DNA of 64,000 nt, from assembly GCA_036924085.1 (NCBI GenBank), contig JAVGWX010000025.1:24818752-24882751 (forward strand). Direction: 5' to 3'. The stretch comes from Ariolimax columbianus. Lineage: Eukaryota > Mollusca > Gastropoda > Stylommatophora > Arionidae. The notes under the pieces were generated by a model. It saw nothing but the letters and a program-made list of their open reading frames with translations. It made no database searches and was not told where the DNA came from. Positions within the stretch are counted from its first letter, which is position 1. The number at the start of each line of letters is the position of its first letter. Of the stretch, positions 2,011-43,409 are shown in pieces. Position numbers and translations under genes: made by a program.

Positions 2011-2165
2011 GCTAATGGCATCATGGTTCGTCAAGTTGATTATGAAACAGTAACTACATTTGACAAGGCTTGTGTTGAAGCTGTCATCTCTCTCTGGAGT
2101 GACGATGGCATCCAGGAGTGCTATGACAGGAGGCGTGAATATCAGCTTACAGACTCTGCAAAATA
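2011..2165 (+). CDS. GNAQ: G protein alpha subunit Gq/11, internal exon (helical domain end)
   Basis: First visible exon of a Gq-class G-protein alpha subunit, the GTP switch that links seven-transmembrane receptors to phospholipase C-beta at the inner face of the plasma membrane. The 155-bp exon follows acceptor TTTTGTCTTCAG, starts in phase 0 and ends in phase 2 (TA + T, Tyr) at donor GTGAGT. It encodes VDYETVTTF, then [14 protein letters not shown], which is diagnostic for the family and belongs to the end of the helical domain. It corresponds to about residues 108-159 of the 359-residue vertebrate protein. The start codon and P-loop lie upstream of the window. Its 3' end is immediately repeated (2164-2277). 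Confidence 0.95.
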
Positions 2166-2277
2166 GTGAGTTTGTTTGGACAATGGGCTTAGTAAATTGT
2201 AGTGAGTTTGTTTGGACAATGGGCTTAGTAAATTGTAGTGAGTTTGTTTGGACAATGGGCTTAGTAAATTGTAGTAG
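2164..2277 (+). repeat. 36-bp tandem repeat containing the 5' splice site
   Basis: Three full 36-bp copies (junctions at 2166, 2202, 2238) and a broken fourth (2274) each carry TA|GTGAGTTTGTTTGG, the same junction as the exon end. The fourth reads GTAGTA. Read-through from the exon meets TAG at once (AAA TAG), so use of donors 2-4 would truncate the protein. Confidence 0.9.
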
Positions 2278-3110: not shown

Positions 3111-3239
3111 TTATTTAGACAGTGTTGAAAGAATCTCACAGCCTGATTACCTGCCCTCATTACAAGATATTCTACGTGTACGTGTACCGACAACTGGTAT
3201 AATTGAGTACCCATTTGATCTGGATAGTATAATATTTAG
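3111..3239 (+). CDS. GNAQ: G protein alpha subunit Gq/11, switch I exon
   Basis: The 129-bp exon lies between acceptor TAATTGACAG and donor GTAAGT. It encodes [15 protein letters not shown], then [18 protein letters not shown] and [13 protein letters not shown] is switch I: the Arg (183 in human numbering) stabilises the GTP-hydrolysis transition state and the Thr (186) binds Mg. It ends in phase 2 (AG + G, Arg). Length and both intron phases match my memory of vertebrate GNAQ. All key residues are intact. Confidence 0.96.
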
Positions 3240-4159: not shown

Positions 4160-4750
4160 AATGACAGCTGGTAAGTCAAATCTAGGATATAGTTGAAGTG
4201 ACAGCTGGTAAGTCAAGGCCAGGAGATAGTTATAGTGACAGCTGGTAAGTCAAGGCCAGGAGATAGTTATAGTGACAGCTGGTAAGTCAAGGCCAGGAGA
4301 TAGTTGTAGTGACAGCTGGTAAGTCAAGGCCAAGAGATAGTTATAGTGACAGCTGGTAAGTCAAGGCCAGGAGATAGTTATAGTGACAGCTGGTAAGTCA
4401 AGGCCAGGAGATAGTTATAGTGACAGCTGGTAAGTCAAGGCCAAGAGATAGTTATAGTGACAGCTGGTAAGTCAAGGCCAGGAGATAGTTATAGTGACAG
4501 CTGGTAAGTCAAGGCCAGGAGTTAGTTGTAGTGACAGCTGGTAAGTCAAGGCCAAGAGATAGTTATAGTAACAGCTGGTAAGTCAAGGCCAGGAGATAGT
4601 TATAGTGACAGCTGGTAAGTCAAGGCCAAGAAATAGTTATAGTGACAGCTGGTAAGTCAAGGCCAGGAGATAGTTGTAGTGACAGCTGGTAAGTCAAGGC
4701 CAAGAGATAGTTATAGTGACAGCTGGTAAGTCAAGGCCAGGAGATAATTG
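4160..4750 (+). repeat. Minisatellite, 37-bp unit, about 16 copies, each with GTAAGT
   Basis: Each copy contains GTGACAGCTGGTAAGTCAAG followed by GCCAGGAGATAGTTATA. Every unit therefore carries CTG|GTAAGT, a strong 5' splice-site consensus, on the sense strand of the host gene's intron. No flanking coding sequence was recognised. Confidence 0.92.
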
Positions 4751-9827: not shown

Positions 9828-9957
9828 GATGGTGGATGTAGGAGGTCAGAGGTCAGAACGCAGAAAATGGATTCACTGTTTTGAAAATGTAACGTCCATC
9901 ATGTTTTTAGTCGCCTTAAGTGAGTATGATCAGGTCCTGGTTGAATCTGATAATGAG
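9828..9957 (+). CDS. GNAQ: G protein alpha subunit Gq/11, switch II exon
   Basis: The 130-bp exon lies between acceptor TTTGTTTAG and donor GTGAGA. It encodes [20 protein letters not shown], then [20 protein letters not shown] and DNE. DVGGQ is the G3 box; its Gln (209 in human numbering) positions the water for GTP hydrolysis. RSERRKW forms switch II, the effector and beta-gamma contact. Phase is 2 at the start and 0 at the end. The sequence looks identical to vertebrate Gq over this exon as far as I remember it. Confidence 0.98.
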
Positions 9958-17251: not shown

Positions 17252-17735
<484 letters not shown>

Positions 17736-20048: not shown

Positions 20049-20156
20049 GTCCAAAGAAGGAAGCAAGCACAGCCAAAGAGTTCATCCTAAAAATGTTTGT
20101 AGAACTAAACCCAGACCCGGACAAGATCATCTATTCTCATTTCACTTGTGCCACAG
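20049..20156 (+). CDS. GNAQ: G protein alpha subunit Gq/11, TCAT (G5) exon
   Basis: The 108-bp exon follows acceptor TTTTTTCCAG and ends at donor GTAATG. It encodes [20 protein letters not shown], then [19 protein letters not shown] is the G5 box, which contacts the guanine ring and sets GDP release. The last codon is split (G + AT, Asp). PKKEASTA is the least conserved stretch. From memory, vertebrate GNAQ has this part and the C-terminus in one final exon, so the intron after TCAT would be lineage-specific. The exon end and donor are tandemly repeated in frame. Confidence 0.96.
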
Positions 20157-20412
20157 GTAATGTTCTATCTATAGTTTGTTCTATATCTCATTTTACTTGT
20201 GCCACAGGTAATGTTCTTATAGTTTGTTCTATATCTCATTTCAGTTGTGCCACAGGTAATGTTCTTATAGTTTGTTCTATATCTCATTTCACTTGTGCCA
20301 CAGGTAATGTTCTATTTATAGTTTGTTCTATATTTCATTTTACTTGTGCCACAGGTAACATGCAATCTATAGTTTGTTCTATATCTCATTTCACTTGTAC
20401 CACAGGTAATGT
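20130..20412 (+). repeat. 48/51-bp tandem repeat of TCAT exon end with six donors
   Basis: Six copies of CTCATTTCACTTGTGCCACA followed by G|GTAATGTTCT and a TATAGTTTGTTCTATAT linker. Donor GT positions are 20157, 20208, 20256, 20304, 20355 and 20406; spacings 51, 48, 48, 51, 51 are all multiples of three. The exon frame stays open through the array to a stop at 20471-20473. Copy 5 reads GTAACA and copy 6 has ACC in place of GCC. Confidence 0.95.
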
Positions 20413-20987
20413 TCTATCTATAGTTCTATATTTTGTTCCAAAATTGCTGAACAACTTTAGCTATTTATATTAAATAATTCCCTGGACAGAATGTAATGAA
20501 ATTTTGTGTGGGTATTAATAATAGTTACAACCTTAAGAAAGTATTTCCTGTAAGTGATTACTTTTTTGGGATTAGTCAAATAACACTGAGCTGGATTTGG
20601 TATACATATACAAGTTTTACAGTAGTACATTCTAGTATTTCATTCAATGTGTACTATCGTGTCCTAAAGCTAAGGTATTTCCAGTGAAGAATCAGGAATT
20701 TCATGGAAAAACTCAAGCGAGTCGTTCACACTTCTTTTTACACCCATGGATGTGGCTTATCTATCTAACACAACATTTGTTTTCCGTTAGAAGATGTAGA
20801 ACTAGCTACTTTCTTGTCAATTTTGTAATGAATGCGAAGTGTAAATTCATGGTGGAGAAGCCAGAAGGGGATGTTTATATCACAGAATACAGGATCCTAG
20901 GAAGAGAACACCACAGGCGCTAGACATAGATAGAAAATCTTTTTCCCATTGGATAAAACATGCATTAAAATCTGCAAAATAATACAA
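20413..20987. other. Intron, nothing recognised
   Basis: Intron sequence between the exon-end array and a TTAA-flanked transposon; no gene recognised. Confidence 0.5.
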
Positions 20988-20991
20988 TTAA

Positions 20992-22124
20992 CTCTTAAAG
21001 GCCATAATTTTGTAACTAGTTTTGCCAGAATTATTTTTTCTATAAAAGCAGTCTCTTCATAAAACTTGAATTTTCTTAATTATTTCACAAGGAAGACAAG
21101 CATGTTATATATCAAATTAAAGGAAAATGAATATGCAGTAAGAATATGCAGGTCTTGTAGAATTTCTTAAAATATTACAAGTAATTGTTTATAATTATTT
21201 TGCCATTTATTGTAATAAAAACTATTTTTCACACACAAAAATGTCACCTCTCTATGAATAATCACTGAAACGTAATGCAGATTGGTCTAGTGTACTTCAG
21301 AATAACAGTATCCACATATGAATAATATCTACAAGAAAATAATTTTCTGTGGTAGTCAAAGTGAGTTGATGTGTCACTGAGTTGTAGGTCTCCCTTCACT
21401 CCACACGGTCGACTACATTTTGGCAGCATTCTGAATGAGTTCTGGGTCTCAGCCAGCCAGTGGTGATGGAATTTGGTACCGAAATCCATTCGCTAGAATT
21501 TGCTTTAGAAATATTGCATCTTCGTTTTTCTGTTAACAGTGCAGTCAAATATTTTTGCCTCTTAGCAGCACTAGGTCCTGGCTGTGACAAGTCCCCTCAT
21601 CTTCAGCATCAGATTCAGTAGGCTGAGTAGGTTGACTAATATTATATTCTATGTCTGACTCTGATTCAACATCAGAAAAATGTGTATCCTCATCACTAAA
21701 TTCATCTAGAGTACACAACTCCCTAGCCTTTTCTACAGATAAAAACAACCTACTATTAGACAATCTTGAAGTGCTAGGTTCGCTAGACAATCTGGAAGTT
21801 CTAGATTCACTAGACAATCTTTGAAGTGCTAGGTTCACTAGACAATCTTGAAGTGCTAGGTTGGCTAGACATTTTTGTGATAGACTGATCTGAAAGACGA
21901 GAAATGTTTTCCAACTAACAATGTCCACACAAAGCATGCAGCTATTTTACATTTGAAACACAAATATGAGTTACTTCCGTTACCATGAAATGGCAATTCA
22001 AGTTTAAAAACACTGAAAAAACGAAACAAATTTAGTTCGATGTGCTGTTAATGATATGAGCATTTTTCTTACATCAAGTGGACGCCAGAAAGAACGCTGA
22101 CAGCCTTATTATGAACTTTAAGAG
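20992..22124 (-). mobile_element. Non-autonomous piggyBac-type element
   Basis: Flanked by TTAA on both sides (20988-20991 and 22125-22128). Terminal inverted repeats are CTCTTAAAGGCCATAAT and, on the other strand, CTCTTAAAGTTCATAAT, matching at 15 of 17 positions. TTAA duplication is the hallmark of piggyBac. At 1133 bp the element is too short for a full transposase. It keeps only an N-terminal-like acidic frame (21937-21545) and so seems to be an internally deleted derivative. Confidence 0.85.
21400..21937 (-). pseudogene. piggyBac transposase N-terminal remnant
   Basis: The - strand frame contains RLSSESRTSRLSSEPSTSRL repeats, then SVEKARELCTLDEFSDEDTH, FSDVESESDIEYN and SDAEDEGT. A Ser/Asp/Glu-rich acidic leader like this precedes the catalytic domain in many piggyBac transposases. 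A frame change near 21560 leads to KRQKYLTALLTEKRR. The DDD catalytic core is absent. Confidence 0.6.
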
Positions 22125-22327
22125 TTAAACAAGGCCGTAAAATAAATACCAATGATTTCTACAAAGATGTAATTAGACGTGAGATAGGGGAAATGAACTT
22201 GTTACATCTCGTAAACTTAAATTGTTCGCACGCAAAGTCAGTGTGATATTGAAATTTCTAAAACCGCTTTATGGAGAGTTGTTATGTGCAGCTTTTCTGA
22301 AATTTTCTAGTGGCAGAAACATAGTTT

Positions 22328-23672
22328 GTGGAAAACTGCGCCTCATTTTCCGCACGATGCAAACATTTGAGGCAGATTCGTGAGCGCATGATGGAAGGCT
22401 ATGACACATTATATTTGGACAAATCGAGGGTAATTGCTGACCATACAGAAAGAATGGCAATCACTGGACAGAAACAAAAGAAGGGAAATTCCAAGTAGCA
22501 AGGGTCAACTCATGGTAACAGCTCATGCAGGGAGCAAGGGTCAACTCATGGTACCAGCTCATACAGGGAGCAAGGGTCAACACATTGTAACAGCTCATGC
22601 AGGGAGCAAGGGTCAACACATTGTAACAGCTCATATGCAGGGAGCAAGGGTCAACACATTGTAACAGCTCATGCAGGGAGCAAGGGTCAACACATTGTAA
22701 CAGCTCATGAAGGGAGCATGGGTCAACACATTGTAACAGCTCATGCAGGGAGCAAGGGTCAACACATTGTAACAGCTCATGCAAGGAGCAAGGGTCAACA
22801 CATTGTAACAGCTCATGCAGGGAGCATGGGTCAACACATTGTAACAGCTCATGCAGGGAGCATGGGTCAACATATTGTAACAGCTCATGCAGGGAGCATG
22901 GGTCAACACATTGTAACAGCTCATGCAGGGAGCAAGGGTCAACACATTGTAACAGCTCATGCAGGGAGCAAGGGTCAACACATTGTAACAGCTCATGCAG
23001 GGAGCATAGGTCAACACATTGTAACAGCTCATGCAGGGAGCAAGGGTCAACACATTGTAACAGCTCATGCAGGGAGCATGGGTCAACACATTGTAACAGC
23101 TCATGCAGGGAGCAAGGGTCAACACATTGTAATTAGCTCATGCAAGGAGCAAGGGTCAACACATTGTAACAGCTCATGCAGGTCATATAAGTGGAGCAAA
23201 ACTTCTTTTCCAAGCACAGTCCACAGATGGTAGGGACTACCACACTGAAATGAATGGAGAGATTTTCAGGAATTGGTTGGAGAATATATTTCATCCCACT
23301 CTGGATAGGCCATCATGTCTTGTAATGGACAATGCATCCTATCATAATGTTACAAAATTTCAAAATTGTTTTTAGTTGACAAGATCATTGCAGAGCATAG
23401 CCACACCTCTCAGACTACCACCGTACCATTCACACCTCAACCCCGTATACATTATGTGGGCTGCAATTAAAGGTCAAGTTGCCGTACAGAACAAGACTTT
23501 CATGTGTGATGTTAAAGAATTGACATTTAATGCCCTCTCAGCAATCGATATTGAGTCCTGGAATAAATGTGAAGAACATGTGCTCAAAGAGGAAGAAGCA
23601 AATTGGCAACGAGATGGCTTGCATTTTATTCAGCCCTTAGCAGTAGTTAATCTCTTTGAATCGTCAGAATAG
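22328..23672 (+). pseudogene. DDE transposase (Tc1/mariner-IS630 type) with internal repeat expansion
   Basis: Frames in order: VENCASFSARCKHLRQIRER, then GYDTLYLDKSRVIADHT (first catalytic Asp in YLD, where YLDETW is usual). After a frameshift near 22440 comes IQKEWQSLDRNKRREIPSSK, then GQLMVTAHAGS, then about 19 tandem copies of a 12-codon unit, then VTAHAGHISGAKLLF, STDGRDYHTEMNGEIF and LVMDNASYHNVT (second Asp). A stop follows at 23372-23374, and a separate frame gives LRLPPYHSHLNPVYIMWAAI. The usual LNPIE-x2-W Glu is Tyr, so the third catalytic residue is lost. Nonfunctional. No terminal repeats were identified. Confidence 0.85.
22490..23185 (+). repeat. 36-bp in-frame repeat born inside a transposase gene
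   Basis: The unit AGCAAGGGTCAACACATTGT plus AACAGCTCATGCAGGG encodes SKGQHIVTAHAG. The first copy (KGQLMVTAHAG) and the last (VTAHAGHISG) are continuous with flanking transposase coding sequence, where a single LIVxHAG block is normal. The unit is exactly 12 codons in most copies; one copy near 22630 has 3 extra bases and one near 23135 is altered. Confidence 0.95.
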
Positions 23673-23834
23673 TGCAGTTCACATGCCAATCTCAGTTACT
23701 GACAAGTGGATTATCTCAGTCGATCAACCAACAAACACTATAATATTTTTCAGTGGTATGAAAAGATAGTGGTCCTAATTTTTGTGTGGAAAAATAACAG
23801 CAATAACTGGTGCTTTATTTTTCTGCTTTGCACA

Positions 23835-24450
23835 ACAAATTTGTAATGGGTGATTTCAATGACAGACCAGGATTAGATAGAAAAGGGGTTGAAGACTTAA
23901 CTAGGGAACTTTGGAGACAAACTTAGACAGAAAAACAGTAATGGTTGCAGACTACTTGAATGATGTAGTCTGAATGATTTGTTTGTAGTCTGAATGATTT
24001 GTTTATAACTAACACCTCTTTCAACATACAGTCACAAGTATTGACATGGTACAGATGACATGACCTGCATTGTAAAAGTCAGATAGACTTTATTCTAGTT
24101 AAGAGAAACAAGAAAAGAGCAGTAATAGATTCAAGAGCTATACAAAATTAGTGTGTAGATATTGATCACAAAGTGGTAATGTTGGTTATGAAAGTTCAAG
24201 ACAAAAAGCATCCCTAACGAAAGGATGTGTTAGGAAAAGAATCGATACACACAAACTTATTACAGAAACGGTTTAGCCTATGCTAAAAGAATTGCAGAGA
24301 GCTTTGCTAGATTGTCCACAGATAAAATCAGTTGAAAGAGAATGGGCAACGTTTACAAGTCATTGAATAAAAGCAGCTAAATAAACATGTGGTACTGTAA
24401 AGTCAAGAGGTTCAAGGTCGTTAGAAACAGCGTGGTGGAGCGACGAAGTC
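23835..24450 (+). pseudogene. RTE-like LINE, endonuclease part
   Basis: Broken frames give FVMGDFNDRPGLDRKG (the GDFN motif of AP-type endonucleases), SNGCRLLE, ITNTSFN, QIDFILVKRN and DIDHKVVM (the final D-H pair). This is the C-terminal half of the endonuclease domain of a LINE continuing to 29900. Multiple stops and a short direct repeat near 23965-24000 are present. Confidence 0.7.
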
Positions 24451-24680
24451 AAAACAGTTAACAAAGAGAAGAAGAATAGCTACAAAGAGAAGAACAGCTA
24501 ACAAAGAGAAGAAGAACAGCTAACAAAGAGAAGAAGAACAGCTAACAAAGAGAAGAATAGCTACAAAGAGAAGAAGAATAGCTACAAAGAGAAGAAGAAC
24601 AGCTAACAAAGAGAAGAAGAATAGCTACAAAGAGAAGAAGAATAGCTACAAAGAGAAGAAGAATAGCTACAAAGCATGGG
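24450..24680. repeat. Purine-rich tandem repeat, about 21-24 bp unit
   Basis: AGCTAACAAAGAGAAGAAGA and the variant AGCTACAAAGAGAAGAAGA recur about ten times, inside the LINE between its endonuclease and RT domains. Confidence 0.9.
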
Positions 24681-25420
24681 CTGCAAGCAAAAAGGAGCAA
24701 GACTATGTCGACTATAGGAAGCAAGAAAAGCATGCACAGTTGACAATTAAGTAGGTTAAATCTAAATCTTGGACAGAGTATAGGGAACTTCTTCATTCAG
24801 ATTTTTAAAATGCAACAAGAAATTTTTACATGAAAATCAAAAGTAGGAGAGGTGATTGTTACAATCGAACAGAAATTATTAATGACGAAAATGGAATCAC
24901 AGTAAGTGACCCTCAACTTGTCCTGAACAGCAATACTTTAAATAACTTCTCGATTTACCAACAACTGGGATCAATGACAAACAAGATACTAACGTTAATG
25001 CTGGAACCAGGCATACCACTTTCAGAAATGAGATATGCTTTACAAGTAGCTCCCCACAACAAATGTCCAGAGCCTGACAACATTCAGGTTGAATTCATTA
25101 AAGCAGTCAATGAGGTAGGGATATTGTGGCTACAAAGATTGTATAACCTTTGGACCACACAGGAAATGCCAGAAGATTGGAGAAATGCAATTAAAATCCC
25201 TCTATGGAAAAAGAAAGGTAGGAAAAGAGACTACAAAATATATAGAGGAATACCTGAACAAAACTGGCAAAATATGTTGTAAAATCTTGGGGAAAAAGAT
25301 AACGCTGTGTTATCGAACCTCAGCTCAACCAGTCAGATGGGATTTAGAAAGAACAGAAGCTGCACGGATGCAATTTTTATACTCCGGTAATTGATGGAGA
25401 AAACAATTGAATACGACCAG
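24680..25420 (+). pseudogene. RTE-like LINE, reverse transcriptase N-terminal part
   Basis: Gives RSRRGDCYNRTEIINDENGI, then PLSEMRYALQVAPHNKCPEP with DNIQVEFIKAV (the GpDgI-vEl block), LQRLYNLWTTQEMPEDWRNA and IKIPLWKKKGRKRDYKIYRG. This is the RT fingers region. The frame from 24830 stays open for 150 codons and then shifts. A SINE-like insertion follows directly at 25431. Confidence 0.85.
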
Positions 25421-25430
25421 GAACTGTATG

Positions 25431-25806
25431 CTTACTCGAGTGGTGCGCCGGGGTCTTTGTGTGTGACAAGGATAAATGTAGCACCAGTACCTCACAGAGA
25501 GCATGTGGTAAGAGGCGAATCATTGTGTAACTGTGACATGGCATAACACCAGCCAAGGTTAGCTGGTTTGTTTAAAGCAGCATAGATGGCGCCTAACAGG
25601 CTGCGGGTCTACTTTGCTCTAGTCTTTGAGTCTATTAAGATGAACTCGAAAATCGGTTAACCACCTAACGCAGCGGAGTATTAAGCTCAAGCCTAGCCCG
25701 CTAAGCAGGACATCTTTCTGCCGGCTACATCCAGCTCATACCAGACCTGGGACCTGCACAAGGGCATCTGCCCCTGTAGAAGTACAGGTCGACTAAGAAC
25801 TGAGAA
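25431..25806. mobile_element. 376-bp unclassified insertion with 10-bp TSD
   Basis: GAACTGTATG flanks the element on both sides (25421-25430 and 25807-25816), and the LINE reading continues after the second copy with LYVAFLDQEKAFDKVD. The insert has no coding capacity and a mixed base composition unlike the AT-rich surroundings. It does not share the SINE core block. A SINE of a third family is the simplest reading; its orientation is not certain. Confidence 0.7.
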
Positions 25807-25816
25807 GAACTGTATG

Positions 25817-25880
25817 TTGCATTTCTAGATCAAGAAAAAGCTTTTGACAAGGTAGACATCATCTACTACAGACCGCTTCG
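25817..25880 (+). pseudogene. RTE-like LINE, RT motif with catalytic Asp
   Basis: VAFLDQEKAFDKVD is the first catalytic motif (F-x-D-x-x-K-A-F-D) of the reverse transcriptase and continues the fragment before the 376-bp insertion. Sequence after 25880 diverges into a short direct repeat (CTACTACAGACC...GGTGTGCTGG, twice) and a tRNA-like SINE. Confidence 0.75.
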
Positions 25881-25974
25881 CCACTGGTGTCGCTACCTGG
25901 TGTGCTGGGGTAGTTGAGGGGTTTTAAAGGCTGAGTACTACAGACCACTTCATGACCTGGTGTGCTGGCTATGT

Positions 25975-26100
25975 TTGTTTATTTCACCCATGACAGAAAA
26001 ACAACATATGCCATACCGGGGATTCGAATCGCTGTCCTCCTTGTCGGCAGGCAAGCATCGAAACTATTAGGCCACGCACTCCTCTCTAGTAAACTAAATA
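25975..26100 (-). mobile_element. tRNA-derived SINE head, another family
   Basis: On the - strand GAGTGCGTGGCCTAATAGTT contains an A-box and GCGATTCGAATCCCCGGTAT a strong B-box; the two are spaced as in a tRNA. The acceptor ends do not pair and no intact anticodon arm is evident, so it is a SINE head and not a tRNA gene. It interrupts the RTE-like LINE. Confidence 0.7.
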
Positions 26101-26262
26101 CAGCATGTAAAGAATAATAAAGCATGTGAATCAATGTAGAAAAAAAAACTGAGGTCATGAAAATATCTAGAATAGCCTGAGACAATATCGCCATTGAGAA
26201 ACAGGAAATCAAACAGATGAAAGATTTCACATACTTAGGAACACATTATCAGCAAACTAAAG
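26100..26262 (+). pseudogene. RTE-like LINE, RT palm end
   Basis: Gives NVEKKTEVMKISRIA, then EIKQMKDFTYLGTHYQQTKE, matching the NvdKTevM and F-YLG blocks that follow the YADD motif in RTE-like elements. It runs straight into the 50-bp array. Confidence 0.8.
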
Positions 26263-26664
26263 AATTACTGCAGAACTCCAACAAAGATACAATAAGGCAA
26301 ATCAGATCAATTAATGACTGCAGAACTCCAACAAAGATGCAATAAGGCAAATCAGATCAATTAATGACTGCAGAACTCCAACAAAGATTAAATAAGGCAA
26401 ATCAGATCAATTAATGACTGCAGAACTCCAACAAAGATGCAATAAGGTAAATCAGATCAATTAATGACTGCAGAACTCCAACAAAGATGCAATAAGGCAA
26501 ATCAGATCAATTAATGACTGCAGAACTCCAACAAAGATGCAAAAAGGCAAATCAGATCAATTAATGACTGCAGAACTCCAACAAAGATGCAATAAGGCAA
26601 ATCAGATCAATTAATGACTGCAGAACTCCAACAAAGATGCAATAAGGCAGATCAGATCAGTTAA
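26255..26664 (+). repeat. 50-bp minisatellite within LINE ORF, left part, 8 copies
   Basis: The unit is TGACTGCAGAACTCCAACAA plus AGATGCAATAAGGCAAATCA and GATCAATTAA. One frame of the unit reads TAELQQRCNKANQIN, the expected next block of the LINE ORF (E-qqRi-kANqin). Each unit contains a TTAA site. The array resumes after the piggyBac insertion at 28903. Confidence 0.93.
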
Positions 26665-28902
26665 CCCTTTGAACCCTGGTCACCTGGCCTGTAAAACCCC
26701 ACTCCCCTGGGCTCCTGAAGAAAAAAAGCCAAAAATGGACACCTGAACAAAACTAGTTTCAATGACAAAACTAAGTGATCTGTTTCAATTATTTGATCTC
26801 AAATAGACTGACCTGATCATCTCCAATATTCCTGCTTATTATGCCAGTCCTCCCAGCATGTAGACCCATCCTTTAGGCACAGATAAGTTTCACAATTTTT
26901 ACACCAAAATTTTGTCTTGACTTGTTTGAATGGTCTGTCTTTGTAGGCCATGTTTGGGAAGTCCTTGACATGCTTGTTAAATTTAAATGACCATACTACA
27001 CAAACATTATTTTCTGTAGCTTTTGGAGACATTTGTGGATGATGGGAACCAACATTTTCCAGTCTCTGTTGTTTCTCGACACGGTTGTGAAGTTTTGCAG
27101 TAGCTGTTCTATAATCCTCAATGAGGGATAAACAAACTTCGTTTATGAACATCCCAAATGTCCTGTAGCGTCTTCCTGTTGTATTGTGGGGACTATAATG
27201 AGCCATAAGTATGTAGGCATTATTACATGCCCACATAAAGAATTTCACAATTAGCCTCCTAGGCCAGCGATAATGCTGTCGTGTCTTGTTGAGACGACAA
27301 ATTTGGTCGTTGACATCTGTGACCCGTATGAAAGCATTTTAGTCAATACAAAGTTGAGGAGTTGGAACATCTACAGCTGTTCCATCCTTTCTTCTTCTAA
27401 CAGTTCCAATTTCTGTTGGGTTGTGGTAGTTGGATATAAAATTTACAGGTCTTTGGTCCATCCAGACAAGGCATACAATGTTGTTATAGCAAATAAATTC
27501 TGAATGACCCCTGTCCATTTTCTTCTTTCCTGACAGAACTATTCCTATTTGTCATTGCTGTATCTACAGCAAGTGTACCATAATCAGTCTACAACTTGTC
27601 AAAGAGAGTTACACTGTTGTAGAATCTGTCCATAATAACATATGGTTTTTGTTGTTAAAATTCTAATAACAACGCTACCAACACCACCAAGATCTGGAAT
27701 AATATTGTCTGCTTTTCCAGTGTAGATTTCCAGATTCAGAATATATCCAGAGCTTGCTTCACAAGCCGTGTAAGCCTTTATTCCTCACTTTATGGGCTTT
27801 GACTTGATATACTGTTTGAAGGCAAGCCTGCTCTTCGAGGGGATCATACCTTCATCTAAGCTTAAGTGCTGTGAAGGCAAATAATAGTGCTGAAATTTTG
27901 GCAGCAACACATCCAACATAGGCCTCACTTTGTAAAGTTTATCTGCTTTATCCAAAGCCGGGCCCTCCTCATCAACAAGATGAAGAAAAGTCCAGAGAGC
28001 AAGGAAGCGTCACAGTGCAGAAACCAGGAGTATGAGACACGAAGTTAGCAGACGAGCTAGACCAGTACTCCTCGTAACGTGGTTTAATCACACTGTGTTC
28101 CATTTGAAGACGCAGTCCAAAGAATGCTTTCATCTCTGCCACTACTACACTTTAAAAATGTTTGGCATAGTAGCTAGTTGGTTTCTTGCTTCTCACCTGC
28201 TCAGCGTGTCGAGTTGTCTGCTCACACAAATTGTGCCAGAAATCATTATCCAGGAAAAGTTGCAAAAATTCACTGGCTTTACTTTCTGGATTAATAGATT
28301 CTGGAATGTTCTTAGGGCATATCTGCTCCATAAATGTTGTGTCTACTACAGACACAGGTCTGAATATATTTATTGGAGACCAACCTGCATCAAATTTACT
28401 TGAGACACTACCTGGGAGATGCCCCCTTCCACGCCCCTGTAAAACAGCCTGATCGCCAGAAAACCAGAAAAATCAGGAACAGGGTAAGATGTAGCTTCAT
28501 CAGAGTCTAATGAACACATGTTATCACTCAAATGATCATCTGATTCAACTTCTATATCAGTTTCAGAATAGTTGCTATCTAAATCTAATTCATCGTCCTC
28601 CGAATTATTGAGAACAATCTCGACAGCTTGTTCCATTGTAAGCCTTTTAGAATGCTCATTTACTGGTTTTTCTGCATGTCTTTTCATCGTGAAAATATTG
28701 TAAAAATTTGTCGCAATGTGATCAGTTCATGGACGCCACCATTTTGAAGTAACATTCAGGAAGCAGTATGCAAATTCTGCAGTGTCTATCCATACTATGC
28801 CCGTTCTTATAAGATACGTGTGCTCTACCGCCAAACCGGGGACTCGGGCAGCGGGTTATGTACACACACACAACGGTTCATCGGGATCACGGGTTCAAAG
28901 GG
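26665..28902 (-). mobile_element. piggyBac transposon inserted in the 50-bp array
   Basis: A 2238-bp element with perfect 12-bp terminal inverted repeats, CCCTTTGAACCC and GGGTTCAAAGGG, flanked by TTAA at 26661-26664 and 28903-28906. The flanks are two parts of the same minisatellite, whose unit ends in TTAA. It carries a degraded transposase on the - strand. The termini agree with piggyBac ends (TTAA then CCYT). Confidence 0.95.
26817..28687 (-). pseudogene. piggyBac transposase (PGBD-like), degraded
   Basis: The cut-and-paste transposase of the surrounding element. From the start: acidic leader NNSEDDELDLDSNYSETDIE (28687-28490); ASEFLQLFLDNDFWHNLCEQ (about 28270); DKADKLYKVRPMLDVL, then LSLDEGMIPSKSRLAFKQYI and KSKPIKGIKAY with an inserted stop (27980-27770), which holds the first catalytic Asp (LSLDEGM); TGKADNIIPDLGGVGSVVIR; and the C-terminal Cys-rich block FWCKNCETYLCLKDGSTCWE with DWHNK (26890-26840). 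At least five frameshifts or stops mean it is inactive. Confidence 0.9.
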
Positions 28903-29450
28903 TTAATGACTGCAGAACTCCAACAAAGATGCAATACGGTAAATCAGATCAATAAATAAGGGGACGGCGTGGCCTAGTGGTTAAGTGGCACGGCTCACAA
29001 CCCGAAGGTGCTGGGCTTGATCCCCATCACAGCACCGGCATTTACCCCGGGGAAGCAAACCATTAGAAAATGCAGGAGGAAGCAGACCCTTACATAAAAT
29101 GCATGCTGAAGACGGATGCACTGGGCCGACAGGCGCAAAATAAAAACCACAGTGCAACGCACACCGCCTGGGGGGGGGGGGGGGGAGAGATCAATAAAGG
29201 ACTCCAGAACTCCAACAAAGATGCAATAAGGTAAATCAGATCAATTAATGACTGCAGAACTCCAACAAAGATGCAATAAGGCAAATCAGATCAATTAATG
29301 ACTGCAGAACTCCAACAAAGATGCAATAAGGCAAAAATCAGATCAAATAATGACTGCAGAACTCCAACAAAGATGCAATAAGGCAAATCAGATCAATTAA
29401 GGACTGCAGAACTCCAACAAAGATGCAATAAGGTAAATCAGATCAATTAA
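28903..29450 (+). repeat. 50-bp minisatellite within LINE ORF, right part, about 8 copies
   Basis: Continuation of the array at 26255 after the piggyBac. It is interrupted again by the SINE at 28957-29187. Units show AATAAGG(C/T)AAATCAGATC variants. It ends at 29450 where single-copy LINE sequence resumes. Confidence 0.93.
28957..29187 (+). mobile_element. tRNA-derived SINE, family 1, full length with TSD
   Basis: Flanked by AGATCAATAAA (28946-28956 and 29188-29198). Head GGCGTGGCCTAGTGGTTAAG is an A-box and GGGCTTGATCCCC a B-box, so transcription would be by pol III. The body includes 29096-29139, homologous to SINE family 2. It ends in an unusual run of about 18 G. It lies inside a minisatellite that lies inside a LINE. 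Confidence 0.9.
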
Positions 29451-29900
29451 CTTTCATACTTAATTGCAATAAATACAAAAGGAACTTTATACAACATGAT
29501 TTTCGTCTCAACACTATGCTATCAATGTCAAAACGGGACACTAATATCAAATGAAAAACAAATCGTAACAACAGAAATTAAATGCCTGTTTAAATATTGG
29601 CCGTAACAAGGAAAGACATGATCAGAAAAAATGACAACAGGAGACTAGTGGGAACAACGCCAGTATTAGACTACATTAAAAGACAGCAACTAAAATGGTT
29701 TGGCCACATAACAAGATACCACCACACAACACTTCCCAACAAGAAATGCTATTAAGATACAACGGATTTAAAGGCTGATCATGTAAAAGGTGGCTTACAG
29801 AAATGTCTGGGAGTAAATGCTACTGTGTATGAGGCACACAGGTGGGCACGTTCTAGAGATCTATTCATAACCTGACACAGAGAGGCATAACAGAATTAGC
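29450..29900 (+). pseudogene. RTE-like LINE, C-terminal part
   Basis: In changing frames: INTKGTLYNMIFVSTLCYQC, then ISNEKQIVTTEIKCL, RKDMIRKNDNRRLVGTTPVL and DYIKRQQLKWFGHITRY, then ARSRDLF. These are the conserved blocks after the RT in RTE-like elements (TrrDkiRN-iR, qLkWFGHitR). The tail is GAAAAGAAGAAGAAATAAAT. The region completes the element begun at 23835. Confidence 0.85.
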
Positions 29901-30379
29901 GAAAAGAAGAAGAAATAAATAAATAAGAAAGCACAAGGAATCTTGAGTCATGTGGAGATCTCAAGATCACAGACTTGTTCAGGATCCATGCCACAAAAGG
30001 AAGCACAACACAATTTGATTGCAACATGACATTTGACATGAAGCAAAGTACTCTACATCTCACTGAATGTTGCCACGTGTGGTATGGACATGCCTTTAGA
30101 AAAGCTTTATCATTATTTAGTGTATTACTGTAAAAATATAAGGTTTGATTAACATTGTTTTGTGCACAATCATAAAACAAAAACGTTTCTATGCAAAAAC
30201 TACACATCCTGTGAATTCATGAACATGAAATCTTAAGGTTCTAGGAAATACAATACTACTTGCACAAAATTACTGTAATATAAGTATAGTAGTTTTTGAG
30301 ATAATTGAGCAAGAGTATGTTCAACAACTTTGGAACGAAATCTAGTTCTTAGCATGTACAATGTTTGAAATAATATAGC
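29901..30379. other. Intron, nothing recognised
   Basis: AT-rich sequence between the RTE-like LINE and the 36-bp array; no feature seen. Confidence 0.5.
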
Positions 30380-30765
30380 TGCAGGCAAACTTTCTACATA
30401 CATTTGACTCTAAGCTGTAGGCAAGCTTGCTCCATACATTTGACTCTAAGCTGTAGGCAAACTTCCTACATACATTTGACTCTAAGCTGTAGGCAAGCTT
30501 ACTCCATACATTTGACTCTAAGCTGTAGGCAAGCTTGCTCCATACATTTGACTCTAAGCTGTAGGCAAACTTCCTACATACATTTGACTCTAAGCTGTAG
30601 GCAAGTTTGCTCCATACATTTGACTCTAAGCTGTAGGCAAACATGCTCCATACATTTGACTCTAAGCTGTAGGCAAGCTTGCTCCATACATTTGACTCTA
30701 AGCTGTAGGCAAACTTCCTACATACATTTGACTCTAAGCTGTAGGCAAGCTTGCTCCATACATTT
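30380..30765. repeat. 36-bp minisatellite, left part
   Basis: The unit CATTTGACTCTAAGCTGTAG plus GCAAGCTTGCTCCATA recurs about ten times. Two unit types alternate, GCTTGCTCCATA and ACTTCCTACATA. The array is the same as 32728-33413 and was split by a LINE insertion. Confidence 0.95.
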
Positions 30766-32727
30766 CTTCTTCTTCTTCTTCGTACGCAGTCAGACAGTAA
30801 CCATTATTTTTTCGAGAAAAGCGGCGGTCATCCTGAGGCTGTCGCCACTGCCATAGAGCTTGTCTTGCAGTTCCACTGGTGATGGCCACATCTGCTCTCT
30901 CTGATCCTCGTATGTCGGGCAGTTCTGCAGCAGATGTTCAGCGGTCATTTTACCGGTACCGCACGGGTATTCGTCGGTACTACCTATCTTCAATTTGTTG
31001 AATAGGTGGTACCTCAGTCTATTGTGGCCAGTGCGAAGTCTGAAGACAACGACCTGCTCTCTTCTGTTCAACTGGTAATAAGCATCGTTTTTGGTGTAAC
31101 CAGTATGTTCGGTTTCCCATTTGGTTGGTCATGTATCTGGCTTTGATAAGCTGTTGTGACTCTTCGTACATCATACTAGTATCTGTTTGTGGTAGTCTTG
31201 CACCTTCTTTTGCCAGTCTGTCTGCCTCCTCGTTGCCTTGGATGTTGCAGTGTGATGGGACCCACTGTACCACTACCCTTTTTGGTGCGGACTGCTGGCA
31301 CAGTTTGCAGAGTGCTGCTCTTAAGTCATTAAGCTCAGTGTTTTTCTGGCTTGTTAGCGCTGTGACTACGGCGAGAGCATCTGTAAGCAGGACTATATGG
31401 CTTTCATTTTCTTTATGTGTCACCATTTCTTCCACTGCCGCCCTCAGTGCCTCTGCCTCCGCTCTGAAATTGCTTGTGTACTTACCAGTAGCGAATGACA
31501 GTGTTATTTTTCTGCCATTTGGTAGGTTCAGGAATGCTCCTCTGCCTCCGCTCTGAAATTGCTTGTGTACTTACCAGTAGCGAATGACAGTGTTATTTTT
31601 CTGCCATTTGGTAGGTTCAGGAATGCTCCTGCCCCTCTGTTCTGTGTAGTGTTTGTTACAGAACCGTCGGAGTATGCATGGGTCCAGTCCATGCTTGGGT
31701 AGTTTTCCGATATAAAGCTTAGGGTAGTATCTCTCCTTTCTTTTTCAGTCTGGCCGTTTTTGTTTCCAATAACTGGTATATTTTCTGCCACCTCTGGAAA
31801 TATATCCTGCCTCCAGGTAGGTTTTCGTACAGTAGTGATGGGTTTTGGTGTTGTTAGTGCGTTTATGGGATCTTCGTGCATCTTTGCTTTGGCTATTTCT
31901 GCAAAGTTTCTCCGCTTTAGTTTCCCATTTCCCAAATTGTTTAGTCTCTGGTGCATTGGATGGTCGGTCAGTCTTCAGAGTTTCTCTGACTGCAGCTGGG
32001 CTCTGCAGTCTCTTCTATCGGTCATGGATTGCAGTTTTGTAATCTTTTCAAGTTCTACAATTGGCGTTGACTTCATGCCTCCTGTTATAACTCTCATGGC
32101 TTGGTTTTGAAGTTTGCTAACTTTATCGAAGTTCGCCTTTGCTGCTGTTGTCCATGCCGCAATGCCATACTCGAGAACTGGTCTCACTCTTCCAGTGTAC
32201 AGTTTCTTTAGTATGCTTTCATCTGCTCCCCAGCTTGTGCCAGCAAGTTTCCTCATGATTGCCATTCTTTCTCTGGCTCTCATTCGGTTTCTCTCGATCT
32301 GACTTTTCCATGTCATGCGCCGATCAAATGTGACTCCCAGATAGTTTGGGTTGTCGTTTGGCTGCAAGAATTTGCCATTTAAACTTAACTTGGTATTTTG
32401 GGGTTTGATTGAAAGCGAGAATATTGTTCATGTGGTTTTCTCCTCGTTTATTTTGACCAGCCATGAGTTCGCCCAATCTTCCAGCGATGTTAGGGCCTGC
32501 TGCATCCGATTTCTTGCTATGGTGAGATTCTTTTCAGAGGTCCACATAGCCAGATCGTCTGCAAACATTGAGCTATGGACTCTTCTTGGTATATTCTCTG
32601 TAATGTCGTTTAAATACACCAGGAAGAGTGTGGGTGACAGTACTCCCCCTTGGGGTACTCCCTGCTCGAGTGTCACCTTTCTGCTCATCTGTCCTTGTAC
32701 TTGGACTCTGGCCGTTCTGTTTTTGAG
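30766..32727 (-). mobile_element. I-group LINE (RT plus RNase H), 5'-truncated, inserted in minisatellite
   Basis: GCTCCATACATTT at 30753-30765 and 32728-32740 flanks the insert, and array units lie on both sides. On the - strand: LEQGVPQGGVLSPTLFLVYL and SSMFADDLAMWTSEKNL (intact FADD, 32690-32430); NPNYLGVTFDRRMTWKSQIE; LYTGRVRPVLEYGIAAWTTA; RNase H AYSDGSVTNTTQNRGAGAFL, HIVLLTDALAVVTALTSQKN and VVVQWVPSHCNIQGNEEADR; and C-terminal YPCGTGKMTAEHLLQNCPTY. The tail is TGCGTACGAAGAAG with repeated GAA. An 89-bp tandem duplication (31451-31628) disrupts RNase H, and some frames shift. Confidence 0.93.
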
Positions 32728-33413
32728 GCTCCATACATTTGACTCTAAGATGTAGGCAAGCTTCCTACATACATTTGACTCTAATCTGTAGGCAAACTTC
32801 CTACATACATTTGACTCTAAGCTGTAGGCAAGCTTCCTACATACATTTGACTCTAAGCTGTAGGCAAGCTTGCTCCATACATTTGACTCTAAGCTGTAGG
32901 GAAGCTTCCTACATACATTTGACTCTAAGCTGTAGGCAAACTTCCTACATACATTTGACTCTAAGCTGTAGGCAAGTTTGCTTCATAAATTTAACTCTAA
33001 GCTGTAGGCAAACTTCCTACATACATTTGACTCTAAGCTGCAGGCAAACTTCCTACATACATTTGACTCTAAGCTGTAGGCAAGCTCGCTCCATACATTT
33101 GACTCTAAGCTGTAGGCAAGCTTGCTCCATACATTTGATTCTAAGCTGTAGGCAAGCTTGCTCCATACATTTGACTCTAAGCTGTAGGCAAGCTTGCTCC
33201 ATACATTTGACTCTAAGCTGTAGGCAAGCTTGCTCCATACATTTGACTCTAAGCTGTAGGCAAGCTTGCTCCATACATTTGACTCTAAGCTGTAGGCAAA
33301 CTTGCTCCATACATTTGACTCTAAGCTGCAGGCAAACTTCCTGCATACATTTGACTCTAAGCTGCAGGCAAACTTCCTACATACATTTGACTTTAAGCTG
33401 CATACATTTGACT
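32728..33413. repeat. 36-bp minisatellite, right part, about 19 copies
   Basis: Same unit as 30380-30765. Both strands have long open frames here as an artefact. It ends by running into a CR1 fragment at 33437. Confidence 0.95.
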
Positions 33414-33436
33414 TTAAGTTACAATCAAGCTTGCCT

Positions 33437-34330
33437 GTAGATTTGGACATTAATATAGGATCCATGATTGAAAAATTTGCGGACGACACAAAACTATGTA
33501 GGAGTGTCTCATCTATAGCAGAAGTAGATTTATTGAGGTCGGATTTAAATGAAATTCGAGATTGGTCTGTGAGATGGCAAATGCAGTTTAATGTAGATAA
33601 ATGTACAGTCATCCACATGGGTAGATCCAATATGGAACATAATTACAGAATGGGCAAGAAGGATAGATAAGGAAAGGGACCTAGGGGTTATAATAGAGCA
33701 TACAGGTAAAGTGAGTAGGCAAGTCCAGATAGCAGTGAATAAGGCATATGCAATATTAGGTATGATAAAAAGAAATATTAAACCTAGGAGGTGATAGTCA
33801 AACTGTATGAAGCATTAGTTAGCCCTACATTGGAGTACTGTGGAGTCCTTATGGTAGAAGAGATATGCATTTGTTGAAAAGGATTCAAAGAAGAGCAACA
33901 AAACTGATAGTGGGATTCAAGAATTACAGTAAGAGGAAAGACCCAGCATTACCGGCCTACAATGCCTCGAAGAGAGAAGAATTTGAGGAGACAATACAGG
34001 ATTATAAGATAATCACAGAAAAGGTTAAATTAGACTATAACAAAGTTTTCTCAAAATGCAACCACCAATGAGAACAAAAGGGCACAGATAAATTAGCTAA
34101 AGAAAGGTCCAGATTGGATATTAGGAAATATTTGGTGAATGGTGAATTATTTGAGTGGTGAATGCTTGGAATGCATTACCCCAAGAGATAGTGGAGGCAG
34201 AGACAATTAATGCATTTAAGAATAGATTGTATATGCATAGCTTTTAGAGCAGCGTAATGCAAATGTAACTGGTTGTCTACAGACTCTGATGAGTCTTCTA
34301 AACCAGTATAAAAAACATTAAGTTGCTCGA
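33437..34330 (+). mobile_element. CR1 LINE fragment (RT end to 3' UTR)
   Basis: Begins at DLDINIGSMIEKFADDTKLC (catalytic FADD intact), then RDWSVRWQMQFNVDKCTVIH and MGRSNMEHNYRMG, and continues in broken frames through VNAWNALPQEIVEAETINAF to the 3' UTR hairpin at 34269-34306. 5'-truncated and decayed; same family as 48720-53620. Confidence 0.9.
34269..34306 (+). other. CR1 3' UTR stem-loop
   Basis: CTGGTT...AACCAG outer stem and AGACTC-TGAT-GAGTCT inner stem, identical in its core to 15629-15667. Confidence 0.6.
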
Positions 34331-34432
34331 TACGTTTCCTTAGGCTGCTTAACTTATAATGAGACAACAACAATATTTGATACTATTAGCACAACATTTC
34401 ATGTTTCTCTGAGTTCTGCAAGTGCTTGTTGC

Positions 34433-35568
<1,136 letters not shown>

Positions 35569-36043
35569 ATAAAAGGCGAGAGTCTTTCACCTTCTATGAT
35601 GCCCTTCTGCCAATTGTCACCATATCCTCCCACCACTCATTTCCAATCCAAGTTTTGCACTTCATATAGTCTCATCTGGCTCCACTTCCAAGTATATCTC
35701 AGTCTAGACACGAAACAAACTTTGTTCTATTCAAGTTTTACCAAATGGAAAACGGCGTCTGTCTGCTGTATGAAGATGAGAAACATCAGAAGTACAAAGA
35801 TGGCAGCGTGAACCCCAGACAGACTTGACTAATCTATTGCTTTTGTTGCTGCTATATTTATCTATTTATAGTATTTTGTTCGTTTGAGAACTGTTTTAAA
35901 TGATTGTCATATTAGAAACTAGTGTCTCCAGACAAGACATTAGGAAACAAAATTTCTAACTGATAAATTTGAGGACATTAGCACAATTCTATATTTACTA
36001 TAAACATTTAGTTAATTGAAAATAGGAAATTGGCAGAAATAAA
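35569..36043 (+). other. Probable 3' UTR with polyadenylation signal
   Basis: Non-repetitive sequence after the stop, with AATAAA at 36038-36043. Another AATAAA (35568-35573) overlaps the last base of the stop codon and is too close to be the likely end. Later AATAAA motifs (near 36958 and 37837) could serve longer transcripts. Confidence 0.5.
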
Positions 36044-36984
36044 ACAGACTAACAAGTTAACAACATTGATATATTTTATTATTTCACAATGTATGGGGCA
36101 CACATACAGAAGAGGCCAGCAAATATTTGCTGGTCAAGTTGTAAGTAGAGCTTGTTGATTCAGGATTTACTGCAACCTTTTGTTTCTGAAGATCTGATTA
36201 CCGTGTTTGATTAAGATTAGAAAGAGCTTAATGTCAAAATGGTGAAAACAGGTTGATTGGGTGGGGTCAAGTACATGACACTTTCTTACAAGAGGAAGCT
36301 GGCGATGGATTGATTGTATTGTAATAGTGGTTGTCATGTGTGAAGTTCCTCACTCTTCACTCTTATGTAAATGTATGTGTATGCGCATATATATATTGTG
36401 TGTGTGTGATGAGCAGTTGGGGAATGTACAGGATATGAACTGTCCAGGCAGAACAATCTCTTGCTCCAACATATTCTTTGCTTAAAGGACCCAGTGAATT
36501 TTCAGATATTTGTGTACTTGTTTAGGAAGAAGGTTTCACATGATCAGAATTTAGATGAGGAATAAAGGGCATGCAGTCACAAGCCTGCCAGTGTGGGTGT
36601 GCTTAAGTCATTCAATGAGCTGACTATGCTATAGGCTATCTTCATAAATAACATACATCTGGTTTCTCAACATACATGATTAACGCTTTATATCTTCTAC
36701 TATTTTCTGCTTTGCAGGATGACTGTTTATAAACAAATAATATAAATTTCTCTTAAAAATTCATTATAAATTTTAGTATAACAATTGCAAAATTGGTGGC
36801 TGAATATTTGATTTGTATTTATATATACAATGGAGGCTGTTTTTTGTAACATGCAGGTGTAGAAGTTAACATGATAGAAAATAGAATCAATATTTGTGCC
36901 CAATGTTGACAATCCTGAAATGTTTTAAGCATCGAGCTTGACCTGGATTTTCTGGCGAATAAATGACAGCACCTGCTTGTACTG
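36044..36984. other. 3' flank, nothing recognised
   Basis: AT-rich sequence with a short TATATA/TGTGTG run near 36385-36410; no gene seen. Confidence 0.5.
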
Positions 36985-37435
36985 TGTGAAACACACTGTC
37001 CAGGTCAATCACTTCTCCTCCTTGTGAAGCACACTGTCCAGGTCAATCACTTCTCCTTGGGAAACACACTGTCCAGGTCAATCACTTCTCCTCCTTGTGA
37101 AACACACTGTCCAGGTCAATCACTTCTCCTCCTTGTGAAACACACTGTCCAGGTCAATCACTTCTCCTTCTTGTGAAGCACACCTTCTAGGTCAATCACT
37201 TCTCCTCCTTGTGAAACACACTGTCCAGGTCAATCACTTCTCCTCCTTGTGAAACACACTGTCCAGGTCAATCACTTCTCCTCCTTGTGAAACACACTGT
37301 CCAGGTCAATCACTTCTCCTCCTTGTGAAACACACTGTCCAGGTCAATCACTTCTCCTCCTTGTGAAACACACTGTCCAGGTTAATCACTTCTCCTCCTT
37401 GTGAAGCACACCTTCCAGGTCAATCATTTCTCCTC
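36985..37435. repeat. Minisatellite, 38-bp unit, about 11 copies
   Basis: GTGAAACACACTGTCCAGGT plus CAATCACTTCTCCTCCTT. One copy is shortened; two carry CACCTTC in place of CACTGTC. Confidence 0.93.
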
Positions 37436-37925
37436 CTTCAGGAAAACTATCAAAACTAGTTCTGAAAGAAATTATGATATCTGCTACTGCTTTTGGTATT
37501 CCTTGTTCATGTATAAAAGGGTCTGCTCATTTGCCAGCTTTGTAGCTAGAAATGACAGATTTCTGTTACCACAGTGACGGCCAATCGACCACACTGACGA
37601 CTACTCGCTATCTCTTTGATTCCTATTAGACTTCGCAGATGTTGGCACTGAGTTTGTTGCAAATCTGCAGCAAGTAAAAAATTGATTTATCAACAGCCTC
37701 ATTAGAAGTGTTACTGGTAGATATGTGGTTCTGATCTGCTTACTGCCCTCACTAGTGTTGCTGGTAGATCTGATCTACTTACTGCGCTCACTAGTGTTGC
37801 TGGTAGATATATAGTTCTGATCTGCAGTTGAATTTGTAATAAAATAGAGACAAGATCAAACATTCATGTGTGTCTTTTGCTGTTCACATCTGAAGAGGCA
37901 CAGAAGTTAAGGAAATAATCTAGAG
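37436..37925. other. Intergenic, short imperfect repeat only
   Basis: Contains ACTAGTGTTGCTGGTAGAT with flanking TCTGATCT-CTTACTG in two to three imperfect copies (about 37700-37830). Nothing else was recognised. Confidence 0.5.
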
Positions 37926-37929
37926 CCGA

Positions 37930-38590
37930 ACCCCCAGGACAACACTTCTACATCCAACCCACATTTCGTGTCAACCCACCAGGACAACACTTCTACATCC
38001 AACCCACATCTCGTGTCAACCCACCAGGATAACACTTCTACATCCAACCCACATCTCGTGTCAACCCACCAGGACAACACTTCTACATCCGACCCACATC
38101 TCGTGTCAACCCACCAGGACAACACTTCTACATCCAACCCACATCTCGTGTCAACCCACCAGGACAACACTTCTACATCCAACCCACATCTCGTGTTAAC
38201 CCACCAGGACAACACTTCTACATCCAACCCACATCTCGTGTCAACCCACCAGGATAACACTTCTACATCCAACCCACATCTCGTGTCAACCCACCAGGAC
38301 AACACTTCTACATCCAACCCACATCTCATGTTAACCCACCAGGACAACACTTGTACATCCAACCCACATCTCATGTTTACCCACCAGGACAACACTTGTA
38401 CATCCAACCCACATCTCATGTTAACCCACCAGGACAACACTTGTACATCCAACCCACATCTCATGTTAACCCAACAGGACAACACTTGTACATCCAACCC
38501 ACATCTCATGTTAACCCACCAGGACAACACTTGTACATCCAACCCACATCTCATGTTAACCCACCAGGACAACACTTATACATCCCAAAA
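37930..38590. repeat. Minisatellite, 45-bp unit, about 15 copies, two subtypes
   Basis: AACACTTCTACATCCAACCC plus ACATCTCGTGTCAACCCACC and AGGAC. The first eight or nine copies have CTTCTAC and TCGTGTC, the rest CTTGTAC and TCATGTT. Open frames on both strands (over 200 codons) follow from a unit length divisible by three. Confidence 0.95.
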
Positions 38591-39178
38591 ACATGAAACT
38601 TGATATATAAATACCCACAGACATCCCAGAGAATGAATGTTAATGGTTGACATAAAGCAAAACAGGCGAATATTCAGATGCTCAGAAATAAACCAGCATA
38701 TTATAGCTTGTCATGGATGATGAGACACTGCAGGAAATATGTTTTGCTCCTTATGAGGGATGCTCTCAATGTGCAGACTGACTACTCTCAAATGTTTGTG
38801 GACACTGGTATCATCAGACCATCAATGCCAGATCTGCCTTCACAATCATCTAGATCAAATGTTCTCTGAACAATATCCATGGCTCTTGCAGCTATTAAAT
38901 GTTGTTGATGCTAACATTTCATTTGTTTACTAAAAGTCAACAGCTTGCCATGAGCATATAACAAGTTATCATTGAAATCAGTGTCTCCTGTAGTAAAACC
39001 AAAATGGCACCGTTAATAAACCTCTTGTTTGAAATGTCACAAGGGAAAATATCAGTTCTGTGTAGTGGATGTCATGCTGAAAAACAACTATTCACGAATT
39101 TGAAGCACTCATTAATCCATCCGGTGAAGTCTCAAGTCATTGTAGAAGCCAAGAAACAGTGATGGCTACGGATTGGAA
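38591..39178. other. Intergenic, nothing recognised
   Basis: No coding similarity or repeat recognised. Confidence 0.5.
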
Positions 39179-39320
39179 ACAATGGTTATTGAGGAGATTA
39201 CCTGTATATCTCTGCATCAGCATGTATGCTACTCTCTAGTTCATGGCGAGACAATGGTTATTGAGGAGATTACCTGTATATCTCTGCATCAGCATGTATG
39301 CTACTCTCTAGTTCATGGCA
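39179..39320. repeat. 72-bp tandem duplication
   Basis: ACAATGGTTATTGAGGAGAT starts at 39179 and again at 39251, and the copies are nearly identical to GTTCATGGC(A/G)AGA. This could be an early two-copy stage of a minisatellite. Confidence 0.9.
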
Positions 39321-39322
39321 AG

Positions 39323-39807
39323 AGTTGTAGGCGACCATGGATATCCACAACAACCTGTAGTGCTTGTTTTATCAATGTTGTTATAGATTCCTTCCTTCGT
39401 GGCTCTCTTTTATGTCATGATGTTAAACTGTTCCATGTCTTTTATCTTTACGGACATCTATCTCTTTGTTTTCTTCATGATATTTTGTCTGTTGTCACAG
39501 TTTTCATGAATCACTTAGCCCTCCTTGTTGCATGCCCTCTAGGGTCATTATTGATATGTGTAATAAGCTTCCTTTGGGCATTTCTCTCCCTCGGCACATC
39601 TTTATTAGTTTTCTTACCTGTTCATGGGATAGTTAACATTCTCCTGTAAAAGCATGTATTTGATCTTCATTAAGCTTTTCATGTTTTCAATGTATGCACA
39701 TATAGACGACACACAGTAAACCTGCCATTACTGAACTTCACACCGTCTTTTTGGTATTCCTTGTTCAGGGTTTAGTTGTTTGGAGATGTAAGATCCGCTG
39801 CATATTG
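39323..39807. other. Intergenic, nothing recognised
   Basis: A frame from 39173 to 39649 has hydrophobic stretches, but no recognisable family or splice context. Confidence 0.4.
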
Positions 39808-39811
39808 TTAA

Positions 39812-43405: not shown

Positions 43406-43409
43406 GACA

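Follow-up and report, generated by a model that had tools for sequence, protein, structure and literature searches.

Why should the end of one exon of a gene, together with its 5' splice site, stand six times in tandem, and would more than one of the copies be used in splicing? The question is raised by a Gq-type G-protein alpha gene of the slug Ariolimax columbianus, found in the 64-kb stretch of DNA that was analysed (hereafter the window; positions are counted from its first base).

The Gq gene and the array over its E7 donor

The gene lies on the plus strand with six coding exons inside the window and its 5' exons outside; the exon names E3 to E8 are our own numbering. Spliced together, E3 (2011..2165), E4 (3111..3239), E5 (9828..9957), E6 (17285..17438), E7 (20049..20156) and the last coding exon, E8 (35486..35568, to TGA), give an uninterrupted frame of 252 residues and a stop. 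E7, whose acceptor is TTTTTTCCAG followed by GTCCA, ends in phase 1 with SHFTCAT and the donor ACAG/GTAATG (the slash marks the exon-intron junction throughout). The codon after SHFTCAT is split after its first base, and E8, which encodes the C-terminal helix and lies beyond an intron of 15.3 kb, supplies the remainder of this Asp codon. Among the matches listed (the best 120 of 6198), the closest Gq proteins are those of Elysia chlorotica, Candidula unifasciata and Bradybaena similaris. Identity to these three heterobranch gastropods is 96-97% by BLASTP and 94-95% in the alignment, while identity to six other aligned invertebrates is 89-90%. In the Gq proteins of all 10 aligned relatives, TCAT is directly followed by DTEN. 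The C-terminal part of a Gq-like database protein of Bombina bombina repeats a segment starting DLLEDKIM, which may reflect annotation or a real duplication.

The array over the E7 donor (20130..20425, plus strand) consists of six units of 51 or 48 bp with a TRF score of 473, and a chance repeat is excluded. It starts 27 nt inside the exon; every unit is a copy of the exon end and the donor, and unit 1 holds the real exon end. Downstream of donor 1 (20157..20162, GTAATG), the putative functional donor, the copies are found at 20208..20213 (GTAATG, +51 nt), 20256..20261 (GTAATG, +99 nt), 20304..20309 (GTAATG, +147 nt), 20355..20360 (GTAACA, +198 nt) and 20406..20411 (GTAATG, +249 nt), and the frame, open across the array, is closed by a TAA at 20471..20473. 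A sequence-only reading of the same DNA had identified the gene as Gq, placed the exon end and its donor, and described six donors with spacings of 51, 48, 48, 51 and 51 bp, all multiples of three, in an exon frame open to 20471; the sequence, the exon model and the coordinates confirm each of these points. The same holds for its calculation that donors 2-6 would add 17, 33, 49, 66 or 83 residues (51, 99, 147, 198 or 249 nt) without a frameshift, and all five keep the frame through to the normal C-terminus. Two of its details need amendment. The donor GTAATG that it assigned to all six units is present as CAG/GTAATG in five, while the donor at 20355 reads CAG/GTAACA, and the TCAT-like box that it saw in each added unit reads TCAT, SCAT, TCAT, TCAT and TCTT in units 2-6, so that the wording was slightly off. 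CAG/GTAA is kept in six of six units, and the predicted pairing of the donors with U1 is nearly equal (five at -8.1 and one at -8.0 kcal/mol).

Against the consensus of units 2-6, unit 1 matches in 45 of 51 columns, exon and intron alike, as is expected if unit 1 is the parent; the six differing columns are its first six, at the exon-side start. Units 2, 3, 4 and 6 are mutually 95.6-97.9% identical. Of the two edge units, unit 1 is 85-86% identical to these four and unit 6 is no more distant than the internal units, among which unit 5 is only 85-90% identical. Units 2 and 3 are missing the same 3 bp. Long tandem arrays are easily mis-assembled, and the number of units given here may be wrong; that the whole array is an artefact of assembly or cloning is nevertheless highly improbable, as its units differ by substitutions and by a 3-bp deletion and as arrays fill the region.

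Arrays at other donors and elsewhere in the window

Tandem arrays are commonplace in this region. TRF gives 44 with a period of at least 12 (overlapping rows removed), and they cover 36.9% of the window. The TRF period is divisible by three in 21 of the 44 (P=0.033 against an expectation of one third), a rough count, as some of these periods comprise several copies of a shorter unit. An intronic array at 4162-4746, which is not next to a known exon, carries 16 strong donor-like sites, which read CTG/GTAAGT in those printed (U1 -8.6 kcal/mol), and a 21-bp array downstream of the gene (40514-40864) carries 11, such as ATG/GTAAGC. Nearly the same 50-bp unit is found in the arrays at 26263-26664 and 29188-29450, and nearly the same 36-bp unit in those at 30377-30765 and 32732-33400, which suggests dispersal of the arrays or a larger duplication that included them. 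The interval 55739-62833 is occupied by a satellite of seven kilobases whose basic unit is the 12-bp TTATTACCCCAC. Retrotransposon pieces that match endonuclease and reverse transcriptase, spread over several reading frames, lie on the minus strand at 48793-51737; in a six-frame Pfam scan of 36001-55802 for other genes, the retrotransposon alone scored above the cut-off, with four matches below it.

Two further donors of the Gq gene lie in arrays. The array over the E6 donor, which is at 17439, spans 17412..17735 (plus strand), consists of eight units of 40 or 41 bp and, like that of E7, starts 27 nt inside the exon. GT is kept in six of the eight units: units 1, 2 and 5 retain ATG/GTGAGT, which gives three donors of equal U1 energy (-8.7), units 4, 7 and 8 have weaker donors, and the GT is gone in units 3 and 6. 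The array over the E3 donor (2164..2275, plus strand; donor TA/GTGAGT at 2166) consists of 3.1 identical units of 36 bp with three donors of equal U1 energy (-5.2). As its only exon bases are the last two, with which it starts, it would fail a strict boundary-spanning test. The donors of E4 (TAG/GTAAGT) and E5 (GAG/GTGAGA) and all six acceptors are outside arrays.

Downstream donors have different consequences at these two exons. Use of donor 2 or 3 of E3 would lead to a TAG at once, and use of any of the seven downstream positions of E6, including the two without GT, would add one residue before a TAG. The gene must therefore choose the first donor at both exons, and two of its three donor arrays cannot yield useful isoforms.

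Thus three of five donors, and none of six acceptors, lie in the first unit of an array. When the 26 arrays between 2011 and 35568 were placed at random 20,000 times, 0.17 donors were expected in a first unit, and at least three were found there in 0.015% of the placements (P=0.00015). The excess persists when the E7 array is left out (two of four donors, P=0.006) and, with that array included, when E3 is not counted (two of five, P=0.011 for at least two). If any overlap with an array is counted instead, 1.34 donors are expected (P=0.11), or 1.02 if the E7 array is left out (P=0.26). The first-unit criterion was picked post hoc and applied to one gene, in which the E3 array qualifies by two exon bases; it fits the birth of an array by duplication across a donor. 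A search for nearby duplicates of the 15 nt on either side of each splice site, which misses the array at 2164, finds them at two of five donors and none of six acceptors. Bare coverage by repeats is no evidence, because 137 of 400 random 30-mers of the gene body have a near copy within 1.5 kb. We consider the excess of arrays at donors a point worth pursuing.

One function that such arrays might serve is that of a landing pad, in which tandem donors raise local U1 binding at weak donors and help exon recognition while splicing takes place at the first donor. Besides the enrichment of donors in first units, the U1 pairing of the three array donors, the weakest of the five (-5.2, -8.7 and -8.1 vs -10.0 and -9.7), is consistent with this function; however, such a ranking would by itself arise by chance in 1 of 10 cases (3 of 5 can be chosen in 10 ways), the donor copies of the E6 array have decayed, and other gene-body arrays have no clear sense-strand excess of donor-like units. 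We consider a landing pad unlikely. A general tendency of gene-body arrays to consist of donor-like units was rejected: among 23 such arrays the sense strand was better in 10 and worse in 9, with 4 ties, and the lean to sense in mean U1 pairing (-3.53, vs -2.93 for antisense and -2.88 for shuffled sequence) is insufficient. Strong donor-like sites number 41 on the sense and 13 on the antisense strand of the gene body, counts that are not independent evidence since many of these sites come from a small number of arrays (the one at 4162-4746 contributes 16).

Reading frame and the use of downstream donors

The sequence-only reading had emphasised longer in-frame isoforms, and it committed itself neither on the use of the downstream donors nor on selection. 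Regulated use of the downstream donors of E7 would lengthen the protein by 17-83 residues after the TCAT loop, which contacts guanine, and before the C-terminal helix, and the six near-identical donors, all in a frame that is open through the array, argue for it. An open frame through an array is, however, commonplace here by chance. In the other local arrays, 11 of 78 plus-strand frames are open (26 arrays, with the three donor arrays left out), and 8 of these 26 arrays have at least one open plus frame; with donor arrays included, 12 of 84 frames are open, with at least one in 9 of 28 arrays. These counts cover the first 276 bases or less of arrays of at least 200 bp, with one array of more than 3 kb left out. 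Since a single 3-bp deletion is common to units 2 and 3, all five multiple-of-three spacings reduce to one 51-bp unit and that deletion, and the retention of frame amounts to two events rather than five. The changes from the consensus in units 2-6 (4 synonymous and 6 non-synonymous, where 26% are expected to be synonymous; P=0.25) do not point to coding constraint, in a test of little power. Selection on the frame of the E7 array is not shown by open-frame counts, spacing or substitutions, and their power is low.

Other observations also argue against longer isoforms. The E3 and E6 arrays are incapable of producing them because of the immediate stops. A protein-database search with the array-encoded insert (query residues 214-305) gave 2335 candidates, none of them at E<=10; the search was weak, as no protein identical to the Gq of the window is among the best 120 of 6198 matches. 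Furthermore, the loop in question connects the site of guanine contact with the receptor-coupled helix, and an insertion there would probably impair switching. On these grounds, the emphasis on longer isoforms is unsupported, and we regard their regulated production as quite unlikely.

Each unit of the E7 array could also be a double-purpose splice site composed of a pyrimidine tract, CAG and GTAATG, so that units would be removed singly as 48-51-nt introns or serve as resplicing points, and any choice of donor would be repaired to the same mRNA. The pyrimidine content before the six CAGs, 0.69-0.75, is in keeping with such a role; it is 0.69 in three of the six real acceptors and 0.81-0.94 in the other three, and just 10.7% of the 638 CAGs of the gene body (these six included) reach 0.69. 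Introns of 48-51 nt are, however, at or below the usual animal minimum. In the units of the E3 and E6 arrays, GT is not immediately preceded by AG; stepwise removal, although possible at E7, is therefore not a general rule for this gene. In favour of this reading, introns have been proposed to originate by duplication of AG/GT; in that model, as in the slug array, a duplicated AG/GT could serve as both donor and acceptor (PMC4974935, PMC3443670). The slug array differs from that model in that an existing exon-intron boundary, not the interior of an exon, was duplicated, and in that any new intron would be hypothetical. Overall, we judge stepwise removal to be very unlikely.

A boundary-spanning minisatellite and its known counterparts

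Based on these results, we propose, with a probability of about 0.8, that the E7 array is a minisatellite that arose by tandem duplication, and that donor 1 is joined to the acceptor at 35486 in nearly all transcripts, which leaves the protein unchanged. The founding event would have been the tandem duplication of a 51-bp segment that spans the exon end and the donor, perhaps between short matches, as TCTAT is found in the exon just before the copied part and several times in the intron. Unequal exchange or slippage would then have raised the number of units to six. Splicing most likely runs from 20157 to 35486, and the unused copies would be harmless at the start of a 15.3-kb intron. Why donor 1 should be preferred is a matter of conjecture; our guess is its closeness to the acceptor of the exon, i.e., exon definition. 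Different accessibility of the donors in the RNA was rejected as the reason, as predicted pairing is similar at all six (mean unpaired 0.12-0.29, 150/100 window). The array folds more strongly than shuffled sequences (z=-5.28), to which we give no weight since shuffling destroys repeats.

The main reason for this proposal is that the first donor has to be chosen among equally strong copies at E3 and E6, so that the same choice is expected at E7. The decay of donors in the E6 array and the TCAT-DTEN junction, unbroken in all 10 aligned relatives, lend further support. On the other side, the six E7 donors are equally strong and all in frame, so that leaky use would be tolerated, and some in vitro work on duplicated donors favours the downstream copy.

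Minisatellites that span exon-intron boundaries have been described in amphioxus under the name of mirages (PMC3087553). They are reported at 3' and 5' exon boundaries alike in the globin genes BflGb6 and BflGb9 and are cited for Adh3 of two Branchiostoma species; differences in copy number between haplotypes are noted, and the units are 10-72 bp in Adh3 and 150-160 bp in BflGb6 (PMC3087553). RT-PCR of the globins and the data on Adh3 suggest that splicing is undisturbed, with cryptic site use left open by that report (PMC3087553). The regular splicing suggested for structures of the same anatomy is another point in support of first-donor use in the slug. In BflGb6, internal units are more alike than edge units, as under concerted evolution (PMC3087553). 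In amphioxus PGBD5, arrays abut 5' splice sites, and an exon predicted in one array is described as having no transcript support; a mirage in troponin C is cited in the same paper (PMC3902484).

The slug arrays share with mirages tandem repeats that contain the exon end and intron start, a variable unit length and a splice signal that many units, though not every one, retain (six of six at E7 and six of eight at E6), and the arrays of both E7 and E6 span the boundary. In contrast to amphioxus, where both kinds of boundary are affected, three donors of one gene and no acceptor lie in arrays here, and the host is a gastropod rather than a cephalochordate; we treat the host as the place where mirages have been reported, not as part of their definition. 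By this analogy, the E7 array appears to be the same kind of structure as mirages in another phylum. A limited search of open-licence papers found no mirage in a mollusc. A polymorphic 27-bp minisatellite in an abalone TSSK1-like gene lies inside intron 3 and, in the accessible text, is not described as boundary-spanning (PMC6905558). With alternative tandem 5' splice sites the E7 array has in common several in-frame donors at one exon end; it differs in that its downstream donors are copies within a minisatellite and putative sites.

For the protein, the E7 array probably has no effect, and the likely consequence for Gq itself is nil. A wider possibility is that minisatellites are born or kept preferentially at the 5' splice sites of this gastropod, that donor arrays across its genome increase the number of U1 sites at weak donors without moving splicing away from the first copy, and that new introns and isoforms could arise from them in a second phylum, independently of amphioxus; we hold this to be rather doubtful. 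If donor arrays do recur genome-wide, they would amount to a natural experiment in which the spliceosome meets a row of identical donors and has to select one, boundary-spanning minisatellites would not be peculiar to cephalochordates, and the arrays would be a standing source of intron gain by tandem duplication.
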